Below, one piece after another: positions 11,322 through 51,097 of a stretch of DNA of 64,000 bases. Position numbers and translations under genes: made by a program. The notes beneath the pieces are model-generated. The model was not told the origin of the DNA and searched no databases. It saw only the letters and a program-made list of their open reading frames with translations. Position 1 is the first letter of the stretch; each line of letters begins with the position of its first letter. Origin of the DNA: a virus; IMG/VR virus record IMGVR_UViG_3300044941_000276, positions 41,642 through 105,641 of that record. One strand, written 5' to 3'.

Positions 11322-14300
11322 CGCTTCTTCTCATTAATGTTAATATATTTTTAATATACAAATATTGGTTAGTTTTATAAGTGATCCGTATTTTACAATA
11401 TTTGTCTCTAATTCTTCTGTTTATAAAGTTAGATAATTTTCTTGTATCGCTCTCATCTTTTATTACTGTTATATACATGCGATCTTCTTTATATACAGCA
11501 TCATAAGTAAATAAAGAATTGGCAGGATTTTGTAAAAAAGGTTTTGATCCATTATCTACTACGTTTCTGGGACGTATTGTTTGTATATAAGTACCACTGT
11601 CAGTAGTATATTCTATGGTATGAGGATATATATGATTGCCAATTATAATAAGATTGTCTATTATTACTTGTGTTTGAGCATCAAGAGATGCAACAAATTC
11701 AATTACTGTATCGTATTGATTACCATAATAATTGGAATGATCTTCTGACACATAATGTTGATATATCAGAGAGTCTTTGATACCATATATCTCATCTCTT
11801 ATATTAAACATTATATCGGGATATATAGGTTTAAAACTTAACCACCTACCTATCGGCATTTCATTATACAATAATGATTGCGATACACCATCAGCTAAAA
11901 ACGAAAACCATATATTTTGTTTAAATGTATCGTAAGTAGCTCTTATTTGTGTGGTTTGATATACATCGGGAACATCTATAAACTTTTCGCTTATTGATCT
12001 AAGATACTTTTGAACCCTAAGATCAGATATTAGTTCCAATTGATTTCCTCCTACTCTCCATATTTTACTTCTATCAATATCTACCCCATATACAGTATTA
12101 TCGCTAGCTACTACTGAAGCTTGCCAACGAGATCCATATCGTTCTGATAAATAATTAATTGCTCCTTCTGGTGGAAGAACTCCAGCTGATTGAAAAAACA
12201 CAGCGCCTGCGCTGTCTCCAGTTTGAGCAATGCGTTGATTTACAGGAATCATAGCTACCCCGTGAGAAAACACTACGATTAAACCTTGACCGTTATAAGG
12301 TCTTATAGCTACTATATCTCCTACGTGATTTGGATAATCTCTATAATTTAACCCAGAGAATCTTCTATATCCATTATCAAATGATTTTGAAACAAATAAC
12401 TCAGAATATTGTATACGTGTTGAAAAATCAGTTTGTATAAAAGGTATGCGATTTCCTAATGATTTATATATGGTATCGCCTTTTACTCTATTATAACCAG
12501 TATTGTAATTATCTGATTCTAAAAATTGATATTGTCTCCAAGTATTTTTATTACCAGTCCATTCTATCTGTTCATATGGAGGGTTGGGTTTAGTATAATA
12601 TGGAGCCCATTCTCTTATACCTTCTGCTACATCAAATATCTGTTGGTTTCTAATATTTATGTTTACATTACTATCTGAAGCAAATGATATCGTAGGTCCC
12701 AATCTAACATATCGAGATAAGTTGCCATCGTTCACAAGAGGATCGAGTTGATTTTTATATAATCTTCTAAAAGTAATCGATACAAAATTATCTCCATTGT
12801 AACCTTCTATTTTACCATTGGTAAGTACTTGACTACTAGCCGATCCTTGATTTTCAGAAATCGATTGTTGATTCCAATATGTCCAATGAGTTATTGGCAT
12901 ATAATCCTCTGCTTCTGGAAGATGGGTATCGATAAGAGCTTTACCATCAACTGGACCAAATCTTGGATATATATTAGCGTGGGCCGCTACTACTCTTCTT
13001 GTAGTTTTTACACTAGCTCCGAACATTTCATATTCTTCATTGGGTGTATCGCTTTTACTAGATATAAAAAATCCAGACTCAGCATTACCTACTCTTGATG
13101 AATAAAAACTGTTATTGTAACCATTAAAAGGAGATAATAAATTTTCATTACTAGTATCGATTGTTACACCTACATAATCATTATATGATAAAGGATGATA
13201 GCTGTAAGCACCTGATCGATCTCTATTTCCAGTAGCAAACATGACTTTATTGAAAGCTTGAAATAAAGCTCTACCTGTGAATCTATTTTTAGTAACAGTC
13301 GACGAATCTTTATCTATAAACTCAAGCTCTGCACTCTTAATAGTGAGAGTGCGTGTGTTAGTCGATACCTCTTTATACAGACTAAACATTGAAGGTAATG
13401 GTTCAAAATCTCCTCTTGATATACCACTTTCAAAATCTTCAAAGCTATCCATGTTTCTAGAACCGGCTATATTAGGTTGCGTCACACTATATACAAATTG
13501 ACTATTTTCATATACTAGCAAACCTTTATCTCTTCCACTTAATCTTTGAGAAAATATACCTTTTTCCCCCATAAAATCAGGGCTGATAAAAGCATATCTT
13601 TTATTAATATACAATGGTATAGAAGCGTTTTGAGGATAAGCTGCATTATTAAGATCTCTTACATAATTATTATTATTCATTAAAAACTTTACAGCTTCTA
13701 CCGAATAACTATATATCGTATCGGTTCTATTAATTTGTCTACCGTTATTTGATTGATTTGCTTTGTATATACCTGCCGATTCCAGTATGTATTCTGGTGC
13801 AGGTATAAACTTAGAATTTAATTCACTATATCCTCTTTTTGACTGATCGGGTATATTATTATAAGTAGTTAATTCTCCACCTCCGTCTCCGTTTCCCATT
13901 TTTTTATAAGAAGTATCAACATAATCGTTTTCTGGTATAATAAAAGTGTTTATTATTATACCTGATGATATCGCATCGCGTTTTCTTTCTTTTGCTCTGT
14001 GAATACGAAAACCCACAGTGTTTTCCTTTATATAATCAGAGACTTCGGGAATGTTAAATATCGGATGGATTATCCCAACACTTCCATTTTCAAGAATCTT
14101 ATTCAAATAACTTCTTAACGGAAATCGATATATACCTCTTACATTTTCGTAATTATTACGTTCATCATAATCAATATCTCCGCTAAGATCAGACATATTA
14201 TATGACGCATCGTTATATATATTATCGATACCTCTAATTGGAAATACAGGACTCAACGAACCATTTTTAAACATATATTGTATACCAAACATATAGGGTT

Positions 14301-40271: not shown

Positions 40272-40292
40272 TAGGCAAATTGAAGACGCCTA
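40272..40292 (+). repeat. AATTGAAG-loop hairpin 1
   Basis: TAGGC and GCCTA pair across the loop AAATTGAAGAC. Confidence 0.6.
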
Positions 40293-40330
40293 ATCTCGGA
40301 ACGGGGTAAGCCGAAAACTCATAAAAAGAG

Positions 40331-40353
40331 TAGGCGTAAATTGAAAACGACTA
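40331..40353 (+). repeat. AATTGAAA-loop hairpin 2 (variant)
   Basis: TAGgCGT pairs with ACGaCTA (one mismatch) across a loop containing AAATTGAAA. It ends 4 bp before the ATG of the 40358 gene. Confidence 0.5.
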
Positions 40354-41808: not shown

Positions 41809-41842
41809 GACAAGGCGGTTTCTATGAAATCGCCTTGTTTTT
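41809..41842 (+). terminator. Intrinsic terminator after 41388-41804
   Basis: GACAAGGCGgTTTC pairs with GAAAtCGCCTTG over a short loop (41809-41836) and is followed by TTTTTT. Confidence 0.8.
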
Positions 41843-42461
41843 TATCAGGGTGAGAATCCCTGACAAGCCTGTGGGGCTCATGTCTTGCTAAGGCATTGTT
41901 GCACTTGTATAGGGGAAGAGTAGTAAAGTCGAGTAATATTGCTGCGTTAGGTAATACTATAAGCATTATGAAAGAGGAATATCTATTTTGACTATATGGC
42001 GCAATGTCTGATCAAGCATTAGTGCGGACTCAAAAATCAGGCAGTGGTACAGCCTTAATCTGTACAAATCTTTGTTTATCAAAGATTAACAAGGAAATAA
42101 CCAATACCTTGTCCTAACTATGGGTAAAATAGTAGTCGTCCTTTTTTTAAATGTATTTTTTAAACCTGTACTATCGTCCCCGGATAGTACATCAATAGTG
42201 GCACAAGGAGGCCGCGAGGGGCGAAGACATATGGTCTTCAATGTTTAACAAATCGTGGTATTGAGCTAGACCACGTTGAAATAGTTAGCTCGCCTGTCCA
42301 CAAACACGGAGGTGTGACAGGTTCATGGGAGAAGAAGAGGCCGTCAATATTAAACGACGTGTCTCTAAAGAGAAAAGGGTTTCCGTGTTGCGACTGAATC
42401 TCATGTCGCACAAGTTAACGACTTGACCCGAGATATATGTAGCTCTATACATTAACAATAA

Positions 42462-43072: not shown

Positions 43073-43094
43073 TATCCAAAATTGAAGATGGATA
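43073..43094 (+). promoter_or_regulatory. AATTGAAG-loop hairpin 5 over the AAA+ start codon
   Basis: TATCCA (43073-43078) pairs with TGGATA (43089-43094) across AAATTGAAGA. The ATG at 43088-43090 lies at the base of the loop and in the stem, so the start codon is sequestered. The same stem and loop occur at 46140-46164. Confidence 0.65.
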
Positions 43095-44212
43095 GAAAAT
43101 TAATTAACGCCCTAGAATGCGAAAAGTATATACAGAAAAAACTTTTCGCGTTCAACGCCGGCAAGACGCTGGCTAGGGCGTGGAACGCGGGGGAAAATTG
43201 TCTTCTTACCGGACCTGGTGGGTACGGTAAGACGGACGGAGCTGCTTTGTTCTTTGAGTATCTCAAAGAACAAGGGGCTTTGTCTGACGAACGTCCATAC
43301 GTATTGGCGTTCGGACAGGGCATGACTGAGGAAAGGTTATTCGCTGGGTTGGATATCAAACGCTTTCAGAATGAAGGCGAATTGGTGTACAACCTGAAGA
43401 AGGCCTTCGTATCCTTCGAATATGTAATATTCGAGGAAATGTTCGACGCATTTCCTGGGGTATTGCTTATTCTGAAGGATGTTCTTCAGTCTAAGAGCGT
43501 ACGGTTAGGCGACACCGTATTTCCCTTGCGAACTAAATTTATAGTCGCCTGTACCAACCGTAGCAATGAGGAAGTCGCTACGGATAGAAGTACATGGGCT
43601 CTTTTAGAAAGATTCGTCTTTCAAAAAGAGGTAACCTGGACTTCGTGGGAAAAGTCCGACTACCTCTCGGCTTTCGAGGCAGCCACAGGCCAGAAAGCTG
43701 ATTCCGTAATGGAGGCTGTGGCAAGAATAGCTGCTGCCAGCAGCAAAGGTGAGATGAAGATCTCGCCTCGTACTGCTGGTAAAGGTCTTAAGGCAGTAAA
43801 ACAAAACGGTAACGACATTACCGTTTTGGAAGACATTCTCGGCTTCGATAAGAAGTCGGTAAGAGAAGTCTTCACTGCTATGGAAGGCATAGCAGCAGAC
43901 AAGGCTCAACGTGACCACGTAGCTGCGGTGGTCGCGTTATGTAAGCAGACAGCAGCTACTTCTTCGAATTCCGCCATTAAATTGGCGGTTGCCGCTAAAC
44001 GAGTTCACGTAGAACTCGAAAAACTTAGTGGAATTCAACGTCGTGATGCGAACGTTGAATTGTTCGAGGAAAGCATCATTGTCATAGAGAATCTGAGGGA
44101 GTCTCTATGGCAAAGAGCCAAGTCCCTTATTAACAAGCCACCAGTTGGCAGCTTGGCAGAGTTTATACAAAACTCTAGCACAAGCTCATTCGACTGGAGC
44201 TTGTTGAGATAA
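43088..44212 (+). CDS. MoxR-type AAA+ ATPase, hairpin-rich copy, 374 aa
   Basis: Walker A GPGGYGKT (about residues 42-49), Walker B VIFEEMFDA (about 112), sensor 1 IVACTNRS (about 155), arginine finger LLERF (about 173) and sensor 2 SPRTAGKGL (about 228) mark a MoxR-group AAA+ protein. These form hexamers that remodel partners together with a VWA protein, here encoded directly downstream. Closest relative in the window is 55754-56920. Nearly every segment of the gene is in a hairpin, including the Walker A codons (43205-43231), so synonymous positions seem selected for RNA structure. Confidence 0.85.
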   Translation: MDRKLINALECEKYIQKKLFAFNAGKTLARAWNAGENCLLTGPGGYGKTDGAALFFEYLKEQGALSDERPYVLAFGQGMTEERLFAGLDIKRFQNEGELVYNLKKAFVSFEYVIFEEMFDAFPGVLLILKDVLQSKSVRLGDTVFPLRTKFIVACTNRSNEEVATDRSTWALLERFVFQKEVTWTSWEKSDYLSAFEAATGQKADSVMEAVARIAAASSKGEMKISPRTAGKGLKAVKQNGNDITVLEDILGFDKKSVREVFTAMEGIAADKAQRDHVAAVVALCKQTAATSSNSAIKLAVAAKRVHVELEKLSGIQRRDANVELFEESIIVIENLRESLWQRAKSLINKPPVGSLAEFIQNSSTSSFDWSLLR

Positions 44213-44290
44213 TCGTTAACCCAATCTCTTGGGTTTGACTTGCATATAAGGTTAATCGTAAAAGCAAGGTAGTTATAATTTTATGGGGTT

Positions 44291-45520
44291 ATGAAAAAAA
44301 GAACCATACCCCACCATCTGTACGTTGAGCCTACGCGGCGAGACGTACAAGAAAGATTTAAGGAGTTAGGTTTTGATAAAACCTACTCTTATGATCTCGT
44401 ACGGGATATTGCTAATGCGATGTCTCACGTACAGAATGGTGGGAAAGTCACTGACGCAATGACCAACGTCAGTGATTGGGTTCTTCCTTCTGACTATAAG
44501 TCAGAGAGGGAATATCAAAGAGCACTCTCGTATCACGAGAATGTTCAAAGATTTATTTCTTCTCTTGACTTTGACAAGTTCAGTGGCAATACTCCGCTTG
44601 CAAAAGCGGCAAGTGTTGTAGCTGCACTGTCTAGTCAAGAAGGGGGACAAGGCGAGGAGGGTGATGGTCAACCCTTGCCAATCTTCCGAGGTTCGTCAGA
44701 ATCTATGGAAGAAAAGGCTAAAAAGTTGGAAGAGGCAGTTGATCAAACTGTCGAGGCCAATAAAAGCCTTGCGAGGTACATCATCAATCCTGATGAGGCC
44801 TCCCCAGAGGTGGCTCTCGCGACCTTGAACAGCGAGAATCGGGACCTCTTAGCCAAGTTAGCGCTACTTGGTGACAGGGGTAAGATACGTTCACAGCGCA
44901 CTTCTCCCACAAACAAACTCACTCAAATGAGTGAGTATTCACAGGTGGGTCGTGTGAATAATATGAGTAGTATGTTTCTCCCAACTTTCGGGTATAAATT
45001 TGCGACCAAGCAATTGGTTGTGAAAGAACCCGAACAATCAACGAGACAAACCCTTGTCTTATTGATTGACAACAGCGGTTCTATGGACGAGACCGACAAA
45101 TTAAGTTGGGTCAAAGCCATAGTAGTTAACAGATTAGACGCTGTTAGTAAGGGAGAAGCTGAGTTGTATATCGGTTGGTTTGAATGTTCTCTTGATGAAG
45201 AGAACATTGTTAAAATTGCCAACAAAAAAGAAGCCATAGCTTTTTTACAAGAAGGCTTCTTGGGTAATTTTAACGGGGGAAAAACTGATATACAACGGGC
45301 CATTGAACAAGTTTGCGAGGGAATCAAACTTGGAAGGCTCGGTAATTATTCCCTCAACGGAGTTAAGCCTCAAATCGTTGTAATGAACGATGGGCAAGAC
45401 TTTGTTGATAGCAATTATAAACCCAGTGTTGTGACTCACGGGTTTATCTTAGGGCGTGACAATGACGGAATGAAGTCAATGATCGCCAATTGCGGAGGTC
45501 ACTATGAGAGATTTTTATAA
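44291..45520 (+). CDS. VWA-domain protein, hairpin-rich copy, 409 aa
   Basis: The N-terminal 230 residues are helical and charged. The C-terminal VWA domain has the MIDAS motif DNSGSM (about residue 261), the Thr of FNGGKTDI (about 335) and a third motif VMNDGQDF (about 370). Such proteins work with MoxR ATPases to insert metals or remodel complexes. Paralog of 56895-58280. Coding hairpins include TAGGTTTT/AAAACCTA, CACTGACG/CGTCAGTG, TCTCGC/GCGAGA, AATGTTCTCTT/AAGAGAACATT (45183-45208) and GAGGGAAT/ATTCCCTC. Confidence 0.85.
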   Translation: MKKRTIPHHLYVEPTRRDVQERFKELGFDKTYSYDLVRDIANAMSHVQNGGKVTDAMTNVSDWVLPSDYKSEREYQRALSYHENVQRFISSLDFDKFSGNTPLAKAASVVAALSSQEGGQGEEGDGQPLPIFRGSSESMEEKAKKLEEAVDQTVEANKSLARYIINPDEASPEVALATLNSENRDLLAKLALLGDRGKIRSQRTSPTNKLTQMSEYSQVGRVNNMSSMFLPTFGYKFATKQLVVKEPEQSTRQTLVLLIDNSGSMDETDKLSWVKAIVVNRLDAVSKGEAELYIGWFECSLDEENIVKIANKKEAIAFLQEGFLGNFNGGKTDIQRAIEQVCEGIKLGRLGNYSLNGVKPQIVVMNDGQDFVDSNYKPSVVTHGFILGRDNDGMKSMIANCGGHYERFL

Positions 45521-47599: not shown

Positions 47600-47665
47600 C
47601 GAACTCTTAACTCAATAAGTTAAACTAATTGACTTATAAAGAGTTACAAGTTCGTCTTGTAGAGC
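47600..47665 (+). ncRNA. Closed stem structure before the tRNA-like RNA
   Basis: GAACTCTT (47600-47607) can pair with AAGAGTT and GTTC (47638-47653) around an inner AAGT/ACTT stem. May be part of the precursor of the following RNA. Confidence 0.35.
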
Positions 47666-47687
47666 TCACCATCAAAAATCAGATTTT

Positions 47688-47828
47688 AGAGGTGGCGCTG
47701 GATGCGCCTTGGATGCTGGCAGGCGCGCGACTGTGCAACATCGGTACTGGCAAGAAGCTGAACGACGGTTCAGTGGATGTTAGCAAAGGGCTGCTCCCTT
47801 GAGGCCGGTTCGATTCCGGCCACCTCTA
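47688..47828 (+). ncRNA. tRNA-like RNA 1 with enlarged anticodon arm
   Basis: A 7-bp acceptor AGAGGTG/CACCTCT (47688-47694, 47821-47827), a canonical T arm GCCGG-TTCGATT-CCGGC (47804-47820), a variable arm AAGGG/CCCTT (47786-47800) and a D-like arm GCGCC/GGCGC with a 13-nt loop (47704-47726) are visible. In place of the 17-nt anticodon arm is GCAACATC/GATGTTaGC (47735-47784) holding an inner CTGAAC/GTTCAG hairpin. At 141 nt it cannot decode as a normal tRNA. An intron in the anticodon loop is an alternative. Confidence 0.6.
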
Positions 47829-47842
47829 CTTAAACAAACAAA

Positions 47843-47916
47843 GGGTCCATAGCTCAGCCGGTTAGAGCATCTGACTCATAATCAGGGGGTCGCAAGTTCG
47901 AGCCCTGCTGGACCCA
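47843..47916 (+). tRNA. tRNA with anticodon CAT (Met or Ile2)
   Basis: A clean cloverleaf: acceptor GGGTCCA/TGGACCC, D stem GCTC/GAGC, anticodon stem CTGA/TCAG with loop CTCATAA, T loop TTCGAGC. CAT may decode Met or, if the C is lysidinylated, Ile AUA, which is common in AT-rich phage genes. CCA partly encoded (CCAC). Confidence 0.9.
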
Positions 47917-47957
47917 CAATCGTTCATTCACAAAAACCGCGACTGAGGTATCAGCAA

Positions 47958-48203
47958 ATGGATGAAAGTTCCTTTACAATTATGTATATGATAACGGTAG
48001 AAGTTTATGATTGTGAAAAAGGCACTAATCGCTATGCGATAAAAGCTGCCAACTTCGAAGAAGCTGTTGAAAGATATGAAGATATCAAATCACGCATCAC
48101 CGTAAACTGGACTCGCCATCCAGCAATCACCGAAGAAATTAAACACCTCGATTGTACATACGATTCTTTTAATGAAGGTTGTATAATCATGTCTCGTGTT
48201 TAA
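47958..48203 (+). CDS. Small hypothetical protein, 81 aa
   Basis: Lies between the tRNA and tRNA-like RNA 2. The core (MITVEVYDCEKGTNRYAIKA, then NFEEAVERYEDI) is a strand-strand-helix unit. An in-frame ATG at 47982 or 47988 is an alternative start. Not recognised. Confidence 0.5.
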   Translation: MDESSFTIMYMITVEVYDCEKGTNRYAIKAANFEEAVERYEDIKSRITVNWTRHPAITEEIKHLDCTYDSFNEGCIIMSRV

Positions 48204-48210
48204 AAATATT

Positions 48211-48315
48211 ACCATCTATCGTCTAAGTAAGACGATTTGACAATCGCTTATAACAAAAATTGAAGATTATAAGCAATTGTTAAATAAATACAGGTTCGTA
48301 TCCTGTTAGATGGTC
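48211..48315 (+). ncRNA. tRNA-like RNA 2 with 16-bp anticodon-arm hairpin carrying AATTGAAG
   Basis: Acceptor ACCATCTA/TAGATGGT (48211-48218, 48307-48314), D arm TCGTC-taagtaa-GACGA (48219-48235) and T arm ACAGG-TTCGTAT-CCTGT (48290-48306) are perfect. The anticodon arm is replaced by a 16-bp stem with one mismatch (48238-48253 with 48267-48282) and a 13-nt loop CAAAAATTGAAGA. The loop contains the AATTGAAG motif of the hairpin element. It cannot work as a decoding tRNA; it may be a carrier or decoy with tRNA-like ends. Confidence 0.65.
48238..48282 (+). repeat. AATTGAAG-loop hairpin 8 (arm of tRNA-like RNA 2)
   Basis: Longest stem of the AATTGAAG family, located where a tRNA has its anticodon arm. 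Confidence 0.65.
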
Positions 48316-49979: not shown

Positions 49980-50690
49980 ATGAAAAAGATTCGTAAAAAC
50001 AAAGAACTTTTTGAATTATTTCAAAACAATAAATTCAAAAATAAAAATATAGATTATATTCAAATGCTCATTGATAGGTATCGGTCGATAGTTAATCCAG
50101 TATTCAAATTAGGTAGTTATGATTTTAATATAAATATATCATATCAGTTTTTAGACAGTCGAGATATTAGAACAATAAAATTATTAGTCGAATCATTTGA
50201 AAAAGAAATTAATCGAGTATATGATGATATTAAAAAAAGATATTATCAAGATATACTCGACTGGGGTAATCAATACAAATCGCCAAGATGGAATTTAGAA
50301 AATTTATACGCAATGGCTGATTATATATCAACTATATCTCAGGAAGAATTTAATATAAGCGCCCCTCTCAATTATGATATAAAACACATCAAAGATGTAA
50401 AAGTAAAAGATGTTATTGGTCATTGTGTAATAATCGATGATCAATTTAATTCTTTTCTTACTCAAAATAATTTTGATTTTCATCGATGGTGTGAAAACTT
50501 TACTGGTTTATCAATACACTGCCCAGAATGGATTTGGTGTTTTGGTTCACAATGGGCTAATACAGATAATACACCAATGGGCGCTGCTATAAGAATACTT
50601 TGGCTTATTGAGTGCGGTTTACCTAATAATTGGGAAGCACAAATGAACAATCAGGCACCTTTGTGTTACGAACAATTTTATGACATATGA
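49980..50690 (+). CDS. Protein with WxWCF...DNTPxGAA domain, copy 1, 236 aa
   Basis: The C-terminal 110 residues (VIGHCVIID, WIWCFGSQWANTDNTPMGAA, then RILWLIECGLPNNWEAQM) are clearly homologous to the next gene. Related small domains occur in phages and mobile DNA, function unknown. The N-terminal 125 residues are Lys-rich and helical. It overlaps the next gene by ATGA. Confidence 0.6.
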   Translation: MKKIRKNKELFELFQNNKFKNKNIDYIQMLIDRYRSIVNPVFKLGSYDFNINISYQFLDSRDIRTIKLLVESFEKEINRVYDDIKKRYYQDILDWGNQYKSPRWNLENLYAMADYISTISQEEFNISAPLNYDIKHIKDVKVKDVIGHCVIIDDQFNSFLTQNNFDFHRWCENFTGLSIHCPEWIWCFGSQWANTDNTPMGAAIRILWLIECGLPNNWEAQMNNQAPLCYEQFYDI

Positions 50691-51097
50691 ATAAAAAAAA
50701 TCTTATTTCGATAGCTCGATACTTGCCTACAATAAGACAAGAAAATTTTGACATGTTAAAATTTAGGACTGGTGATAAATCATCTCATGAGTGCAATTCA
50801 ATAGGATGCGTCATTGGTCATTGTACAATATTAGATGACTACGAAAACATACCTCGTACACCTACAGGTCAAATAAATTTTCAATTATGGTCTGAAAAGT
50901 ACACGGGTTTACCTATCGATAGTGAAGAATGGGCTTGGTGCTTTTCTGAACAATGGGCTCATTGGGGAACAGATAATACTCCCATTGGTGCAGCCAAACG
51001 TATAATTTGGTTAATTACCGAAGGACTACCTGAAAATTGGAGAGAACAAATTACAGGTGAAGATCCTTTGTGTTATACGAACATCGAAATATTTTAA
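50687..51097 (+). CDS. Protein with WxWCF...DNTPxGAA domain, copy 2, 136 aa
   Basis: Tandem paralog of the previous gene's C-terminal domain (VIGHCTILD, WAWCFSEQWAHWGTDNTPIG, then RIIWLITEGLPENWREQI) without the Lys-rich N-terminus. Coupled translation suggests the two form a pair. Function unknown. Confidence 0.6.
   Translation: MNKKNLISIARYLPTIRQENFDMLKFRTGDKSSHECNSIGCVIGHCTILDDYENIPRTPTGQINFQLWSEKYTGLPIDSEEWAWCFSEQWAHWGTDNTPIGAAKRIIWLITEGLPENWREQITGEDPLCYTNIEIF

Follow-up and report, generated by a model that had tools for sequence, protein, structure and literature searches.

What are two RNAs that have the acceptor, T arm and D-like arm of a tRNA, that lie in a cluster of phage tRNA genes, and that are not called as tRNAs? 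The question arises in a window of 64,000 nucleotides (the whole stretch of DNA that was analysed), which belongs to a 105,641-base virus record of a tailed phage with a portal protein of family phrog_6547. A sequence-only reading had noted two tRNA-like RNAs here, and their presence could be confirmed: a strict scan of the 64 kb for a T arm, an acceptor and a D-like arm returned exactly two matches, RNA1 and RNA2, against a mean of 0.075 matches per window in Markov-shuffled windows. The folding energy of RNA1 is -62.6 kcal/mol (z -2.9 against shuffles) and that of RNA2 is -35.1 kcal/mol (z -6.5, with 0 of 200 shuffles as good). The sizes first proposed, 105 and 141 nt, were revised to about 104 nt for RNA2 and about 142-144 nt for RNA1. 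At 47.6-48.3 kb the order is a decayed tRNA, RNA1, a tRNA (CAT), a small ORF and RNA2, with the following features.

47601-47668, + strand: decayed tRNA upstream of RNA1 (17.1 bits)
47687-47828, + strand: RNA1, tRNA-like RNA of family R1 (144.8 bits to the R1 model, which contains its own sequence; covariation)
47687-47693, + strand: RNA1 acceptor, 5' strand, UAGAGGU, partner 47822-47828 (two-sided change in 4 pairs across the family)
47694-47708, + strand: RNA1 D-like arm, GGCGC-UGGAU-GCGCC, with GG in the loop (family alignment)
47714-47741, + strand: RNA1 inserted hairpin B with a self-complementary GCGC tetraloop (two-sided changes in 9 of 12 pairs)
47747-47783, + strand: RNA1 inserted two-part hairpin C (two-sided changes in 7 pairs)
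47764-47767, + strand: invariant GACG loop of hairpin C
47786-47800, + strand: RNA1 anticodon-like arm, AAGGG-CTGCT-CCCTT (5-nt loop, CUGCU)
47803-47821, + strand: RNA1 T arm, GGCCGG-UUCGAUU-CCGGCC (family alignment, covariation)
47822-47828, + strand: RNA1 acceptor, 3' strand (covariation)
47843-47917, + strand: ordinary tRNA, anticodon CAT, for Met or Ile2 (ARAGORN; Rfam tRNA, 65.8 bits)
47958-48203: small ORF, function unassigned
48211-48314, + strand: RNA2, the second tRNA-like RNA (z -6.5)
48211-48218, + strand: RNA2 acceptor, 5' strand, partner 48307-48314 (sequence, arm scan)
48219-48235, + strand: RNA2 D-like hairpin, loop UAAGUAA without GG (sequence, fold)
48236-48284, + strand: RNA2 long hairpin in the place of the anticodon arm, with AATTGAAG in its loop at 48258-48265 (fold)
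48290-48306, + strand: RNA2 T arm, ACAGG-UUCGUAU-CCUGU (fold, arm scan)

Ordinary tRNAs carrying introns, or odd phage tRNAs in decay, might be suspected at such a location, a tRNA cluster with a decaying tRNA among its genes (its counterpart in the near-identical phage L002, at 13331-13400, scores 35.8 bits, above threshold) and in which the tRNA (CAT) starts 15 nt after the end of RNA1. ARAGORN called neither RNA1 nor RNA2, and both fall below the gathering threshold of the Rfam tRNA family (RF00005). The T loop of RNA1, UUCGAUU, fits the UUCRANN of tRNAs, whereas the UUCGUAU of RNA2 deviates from it. In the place of the 7-nt anticodon loop with U33 of a tRNA, RNA1 has a 5-nt loop, CUGCU, and its relatives have CNNCUAA (in most of them) or CNNCGCA; since U33 is mostly missing, decoding is unlikely. 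Nor is a CCA encoded at the 3' end of RNA1, where the next letters are CTTA. The sequence-only reading held that the anticodon arm was replaced by a hairpin in both RNAs; this describes RNA2, but in RNA1 the arm is present and conserved, and the additional ~80 nt form two hairpin domains between the D-like and anticodon-like arms. That insert is a conserved, covarying domain with no match among intron families, what remains around it is non-decoding, and all four changes in paired columns between RNA1 and its near-identical copy in L002 keep or restore the pair. The intron that had been considered for RNA1 is thus unlikely, and a reading of these RNAs as interrupted or decaying tRNAs seems to us scarcely tenable.

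RNA1 is instead a member of a conserved RNA family uncatalogued in Rfam. BLASTN returned no homologue of RNA1 among annotated phages and plasmids. A T-arm pattern led to an unrelated phage, L011, a two-piece pattern shared with it led to more phages and prophages, and a second pattern, taken from the 3' half of RNA1, added four further members. The resulting family, R1, comprises 12 distinct sequences including RNA1, alignable over their full length; other matches to the RNA1 patterns (L013, L015, L019-L025 and L027) were set aside as chance matches or ordinary tRNAs. A covariance model built from eight of the 12 (alignment A2) gave 101-135 bits to the four held-out members (L029-L032), against at most 21.8 bits for chance matches. 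In the eight-sequence alignment 93% of cells pair, with two-sided changes in 21 of 48 pairs, values equalled by none of 500 shuffles; structures slid along the alignment reach pairing in just 40-48% of cells. The architecture is an acceptor of 7-9 bp, a D-like arm, hairpin B (12 bp), hairpin C, an anticodon-like arm (5 bp) and a T arm, and RNA1 shows this order of arms. The D-like arm of RNA1 is invariant in all eight aligned members and nearly so across the 12, and the tetraloop of hairpin B is self-complementary in 8 of 8, with G-U pairs counted. One member, at 8211-8385 of L031 (a contig of 47% GC), has no obvious surrounding gene. Support for RNA1 is thus stronger than the sequence-only reading proposed: the homologues in other phages that it asked to be sought exist, some of them in unrelated phages; RNA2 has a copy in L002 only.

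The genomic settings of the R1 members are diverse. In seven phage or prophage sequences (L014, L017, L018, L026, L028, L030 and L032) the element lies in frame within a Mu-type transposase gene, an identity assigned by similarity to L028, where Pfam finds domains of Mu transposases, DDE_2 among them; the element has the same sequence in L017 and L028. It occupies the linker between the N-terminal part of the protein and the rest, and in two other phages the region of the homologous transposase that precedes the common part is shorter by about 72 residues. Among the transposase copies the sequence of hairpin B is wholly different and yet pairs, so that it is the RNA that is conserved and not the peptide. 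In L011 and L016 the element is again in frame, in a gene without a Pfam match that we take, from its sequence, as a phage exonuclease-type recombination gene, and in L029 it lies 26 nt ahead of the start of a gene named recT-like from its sequence.

Such insertions raise the possibility of a passenger, that is, a tRNA-derived mobile or hitch-hiking element that settles in leaders, in tRNA clusters and in linkers of proteins and brings the phage no advantage. A scattered distribution would suit it, with one copy per genome and presence in 2 of 401 sampled genomes of a bacterial family, as would the insertion, in frame, into the linkers of MuA-like and exonuclease-like proteins, at a stretch that homologous transposases lack. 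The strong pair-preserving evolution described above argues against it; moreover, neither terminal repeats outside the acceptor nor a mobility gene were seen. Together with the recurrent position 22-30 nt ahead of start codons, described below, these points make a passenger improbable.

RNA2 is at present known in two near-identical phages only, that of the window and L002, where a single substitution turns a C-G pair of the D-like stem into U-G. A pattern search of viral contigs for RNA2 found no match; the exact pattern would miss L002 too, because of the change in its D-like stem, and the range of RNA2 is accordingly loosely bounded. The sequence-only reading had connected the second RNA to a hairpin element through AATTGAAG in its loop, and this link stood: the octamer occurs in seven + strand hairpin loops with unrelated stem sequences between 40.2 and 48.3 kb (at 40278, 40693, 42749, 43080, 45811, 46149 and 48258), the last being RNA2 and the other six spanning 40.2-46.2 kb, and its copies elsewhere in the window have no convincing hairpin-loop placement. 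We take RNA2 as a probable tRNA-derived RNA that is specific to this phage and similar in use, its anticodon arm being the phage's own AATTGAAG hairpin.

Several other features of the window deserve mention in their own right. The AATTGAAG hairpin at 43080, of 16 pairs, covers the probable start codon (43088) of a MoxR-like AAA ATPase gene (bpMoxR), which is followed by a gene for a VWA-domain protein (43088-45520), an unusual pair for a phage. A DUF805b RNA motif (RF02914) lies among the AATTGAAG hairpins at 40301-40336 and barely passes its threshold (36.1 bits, against 35.6), and a self-cleaving Hatchet ribozyme stands at 41841-42042 (70.3 bits against a threshold of 51), where genes are few, beside a tRNA-Arg. 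The neighbouring genes at 50476-50674 and 50877-51083 share a stretch of 67.6% identity and appear to be a duplicated pair.

A second family came to light with BLASTN, where an R1 member matched an unannotated stretch of Escherichia phage HK75. The HK75 RNA shares the architecture of R1 and consists of an acceptor, AA, a D arm with GG, an insert of about 57 nt, a 5-bp anticodon-like arm with the loop CAGCGCA, and a T arm. Its family, R2, is present in 92 annotated phage records, 170 of 5,426 complete E. coli genomes and 88 IMG/VR contigs (overlapping sets), almost always unannotated, part of it being called tRNA-Ser in one record. Two-sided changes occur in 12 pairs, and this covariation bears out the acceptor, anticodon-like and T stems. 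Outside its own family the R2 model scores the members of R1 highest, every one of them at 22.6-41 bits, while in the same search ordinary tRNAs and odd tRNA-likes stay at or below 20.4 bits; the two families are probably one superfamily. For the sequence of RNA1 alone the link is suggestive only: the R2 model gives it 26.8 bits, the R1 model gives the HK75 RNA 28.1 bits, and beside this weak score stand the tRNA features common to both families. Unannotated tRNA-likes with odd anticodon arms were also seen in Gordonia phage Trax (L040, 1962-2037), in MT838775 (L041, about 1970-2049), where the 5-nt loop CCGCU is much like the CUGCU of RNA1, and in FP_Toutatis (L038, about 1445-1532).

At one fixed position of the insert, each of the 50 distinct R2 sequences has a palindrome of 6 nt, in four versions (ACTAGT, TCTAGA, TCGCGA and ACCGGT) that differ by paired changes. 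Since a palindromic hexamer is unable to pair with itself within a single molecule, the most economical interpretation is a kissing dimer, and the pattern suggests that R2 RNAs form such dimers through the loop hexamer. The GCGCA of the R2 anticodon loop could, in addition, pair with an upstream GCGCG, both being nearly invariant.

Given the T arm and acceptor, a reduced tmRNA-like RNA, or a tmRNA decoy, that binds SmpB or the ribosome has also to be weighed. The tmRNA family (RF00023) is indeed the top sub-threshold Rfam match both of RNA1 (19.9 bits) and of the HK75 RNA (20.2 bits); these scores are well under the threshold of 47 bits and stem from the shared T arm and acceptor, other members have no tmRNA match, and the consensus fold of about 144 nt contains neither a tag region or tag frame nor pseudoknots. 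We regard a tmRNA relative as very improbable. More generally, no Rfam 15 family matches R1 or R2 members at threshold, and ARAGORN and Rfam reject ordinary tRNA, tmRNA, YrlA, permuted tmRNA and introns as identifications.

The position of R2 is informative as to its role. In at least ten lambdoid phages or prophages it ends 22-30 nt before the first codon of N, and in several cases it lies clearly downstream of a boxA or boxB-like site; the N proteins encoded behind it differ among phages, and all match phrog_271 (anti-termination protein N-like). Comparison of the leader of L042 with that of lambda shows near identity up to ..CTTTGGGGTGT, the base of the lambda hairpin, and again from CCACCAAAGCTAACTGACAGGAG on, so that the tRNA-like RNA stands exactly where lambda has its hairpin between nutL and N. 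Lambda-type N leaders hence occur in at least two forms (L139, L042), with the lambda hairpin or with a tRNA-like RNA. In the N-leader copies the acceptor is extended by a helix of 7-13 bp with a bulged A, which may be an RNase III substrate; the ACCA of these copies is part of the extended helix and hence poor evidence for CCA ends. The N protein of lambda represses its own translation via nutL, with Nus factors, across a structured spacer, and this autorepression is modulated by RNase III (PMC5725501, citing Wilson et al. 1997 and 2002). Further settings of R2 are a position about 244 nt upstream of a lambda-type holin gene (many copies), one just upstream of a tRNA in Salmonella phages Skate and Akira, which the arrangement of RNA1 upstream of its tRNA resembles, and one near recombination genes in Pantoea phage PdC23.

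From the fold, the conservation, the placement and the exchange with the lambda hairpin we infer that these RNAs are tRNA-shaped leader, spacer and processing elements of phage transcripts that act in cis, a reading to which we give slightly less than an even chance. RNA1 keeps the tRNA acceptor, the elbow (the GG of the D loop and the T loop) and an anticodon-like arm in a form unlikely to decode, and the domain between the D and anticodon arms may let two molecules pair via their self-complementary loops. An R1-type element would work in cis as a folded leader, or as a spacer and processing element, with host RNase P and RNase Z/E cutting around it and RNase III also cutting where the acceptor runs on into a long helix; such cuts would release the RNA itself as well as the message or tRNA that follows it. 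That host tRNA-processing enzymes are used, as the sequence-only reading had supposed, is plausible given the tRNA-like fold. In lambdoid phages cleavage would part the N ribosome-binding site from the nut/antitermination complex, a separation that the RNase III-modulated hairpin provides in lambda, whereas RNA1, in a tRNA transcription unit, would be matured together with the neighbouring tRNA. Once released, a dimer may also act in trans.

Some observations sit uneasily with this cis-acting role. Where an R1 element lies in frame within a Mu-like transposase or an exonuclease-like gene, the message would be lost to cleavage, unless that is itself regulatory; the many R2 copies about 244 nt from a holin gene are not close to a start codon; and a self-complementary loop is not obviously needed in a processing site.

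Self-complementary loops also count in favour of the main rival, according to which the RNA acts in trans after release: as a dimer it would mimic a tRNA and capture a protein that handles tRNAs, either of the host or of a defence system, such as an anticodon nuclease, a tRNA synthetase, EF-Tu or a RelA-type sensor. Stand-alone copies in or beside phage tRNA genes (in the window, Skate and Akira) agree with a decoy, as do the conserved elbow beside a non-decoding anticodon loop and the occurrence in very different phages and contexts, as for a cargo gene. However, the lambdoid position is fixed to gene leaders and the RNA there is swapped with a cis-acting lambda hairpin, RNA1 has no encoded CCA, and no target was identified. 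A decoy we consider unlikely, and the carrier RNA and EF-Tu binding put forward in the sequence-only reading are conjectural. Somewhat less doubtful, and still to be held only tentatively, is the broader proposal of a new class: a dimerising, non-decoding tRNA mimic, exchanged as a module among the leaders of early genes, where it would take the place of the lambda RNase III site before N, those of late genes, recombination and transposase genes and tRNA clusters, which would use the host's tRNA-maturation enzymes for expression control or for tRNA-based counter-defence.

Although the N leader of lambda is a textbook regulatory region, there is neither annotation nor an Rfam family for this structured RNA, which close relatives of lambda carry and which occurs in about 3% of the complete genomes of E. 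coli. R2 leaders make it possible to ask directly whether phage antitermination is under the control of tRNA maturation enzymes, and both families bear on whether tRNA mimicry and RNA dimerisation are phage tools. Unannotated tRNA-like RNAs extend well beyond the tRNAs reported by phage annotation pipelines.

No description of the R1 or R2 RNAs was found in the open-access literature, the scope of the search (subscription papers lay outside it), and the Pas sRNAs described for lambdoid prophages (PMC13192938) are not the same as these. As a kind, tRNA-like non-coding RNAs are known, and there is a fair chance that R1 and R2 make up a new class of phage regulatory RNA. With phage-encoded tRNAs (RF00005) they share the acceptor, D, anticodon-like and T arms and the gene neighbourhood, and differ from them in the extra domain between the D and anticodon arms, the non-decoding loop and the lack of an ARAGORN call. 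With tmRNA they have in common an acceptor, T arm and D loop set in a larger RNA, but they keep an anticodon-like arm, have an insert of 55-80 nt, and lack the tag frame and the chain of pseudoknots. YrlA, a bacterial Y RNA (RF02553), is likewise a non-coding RNA with a tRNA-like module, although its match here is at chance level (18.9 bits, threshold 69). Retroviral dimer-initiation loops include self-complementary hexamer loops and GACG tetraloops, and so resemble the R2 hexamer and the invariant GACG loop of R1; the RNAs are different ones, and the likeness is one of resemblance only. The RNase III-modulated hairpin of the lambda N leader shares both position and flanks with the R2 RNA of L042, the two lying between the nut site and the ribosome-binding site of N, where RNA1 is not placed; it is a plain long hairpin, whereas R2 has the fold of a tRNA.
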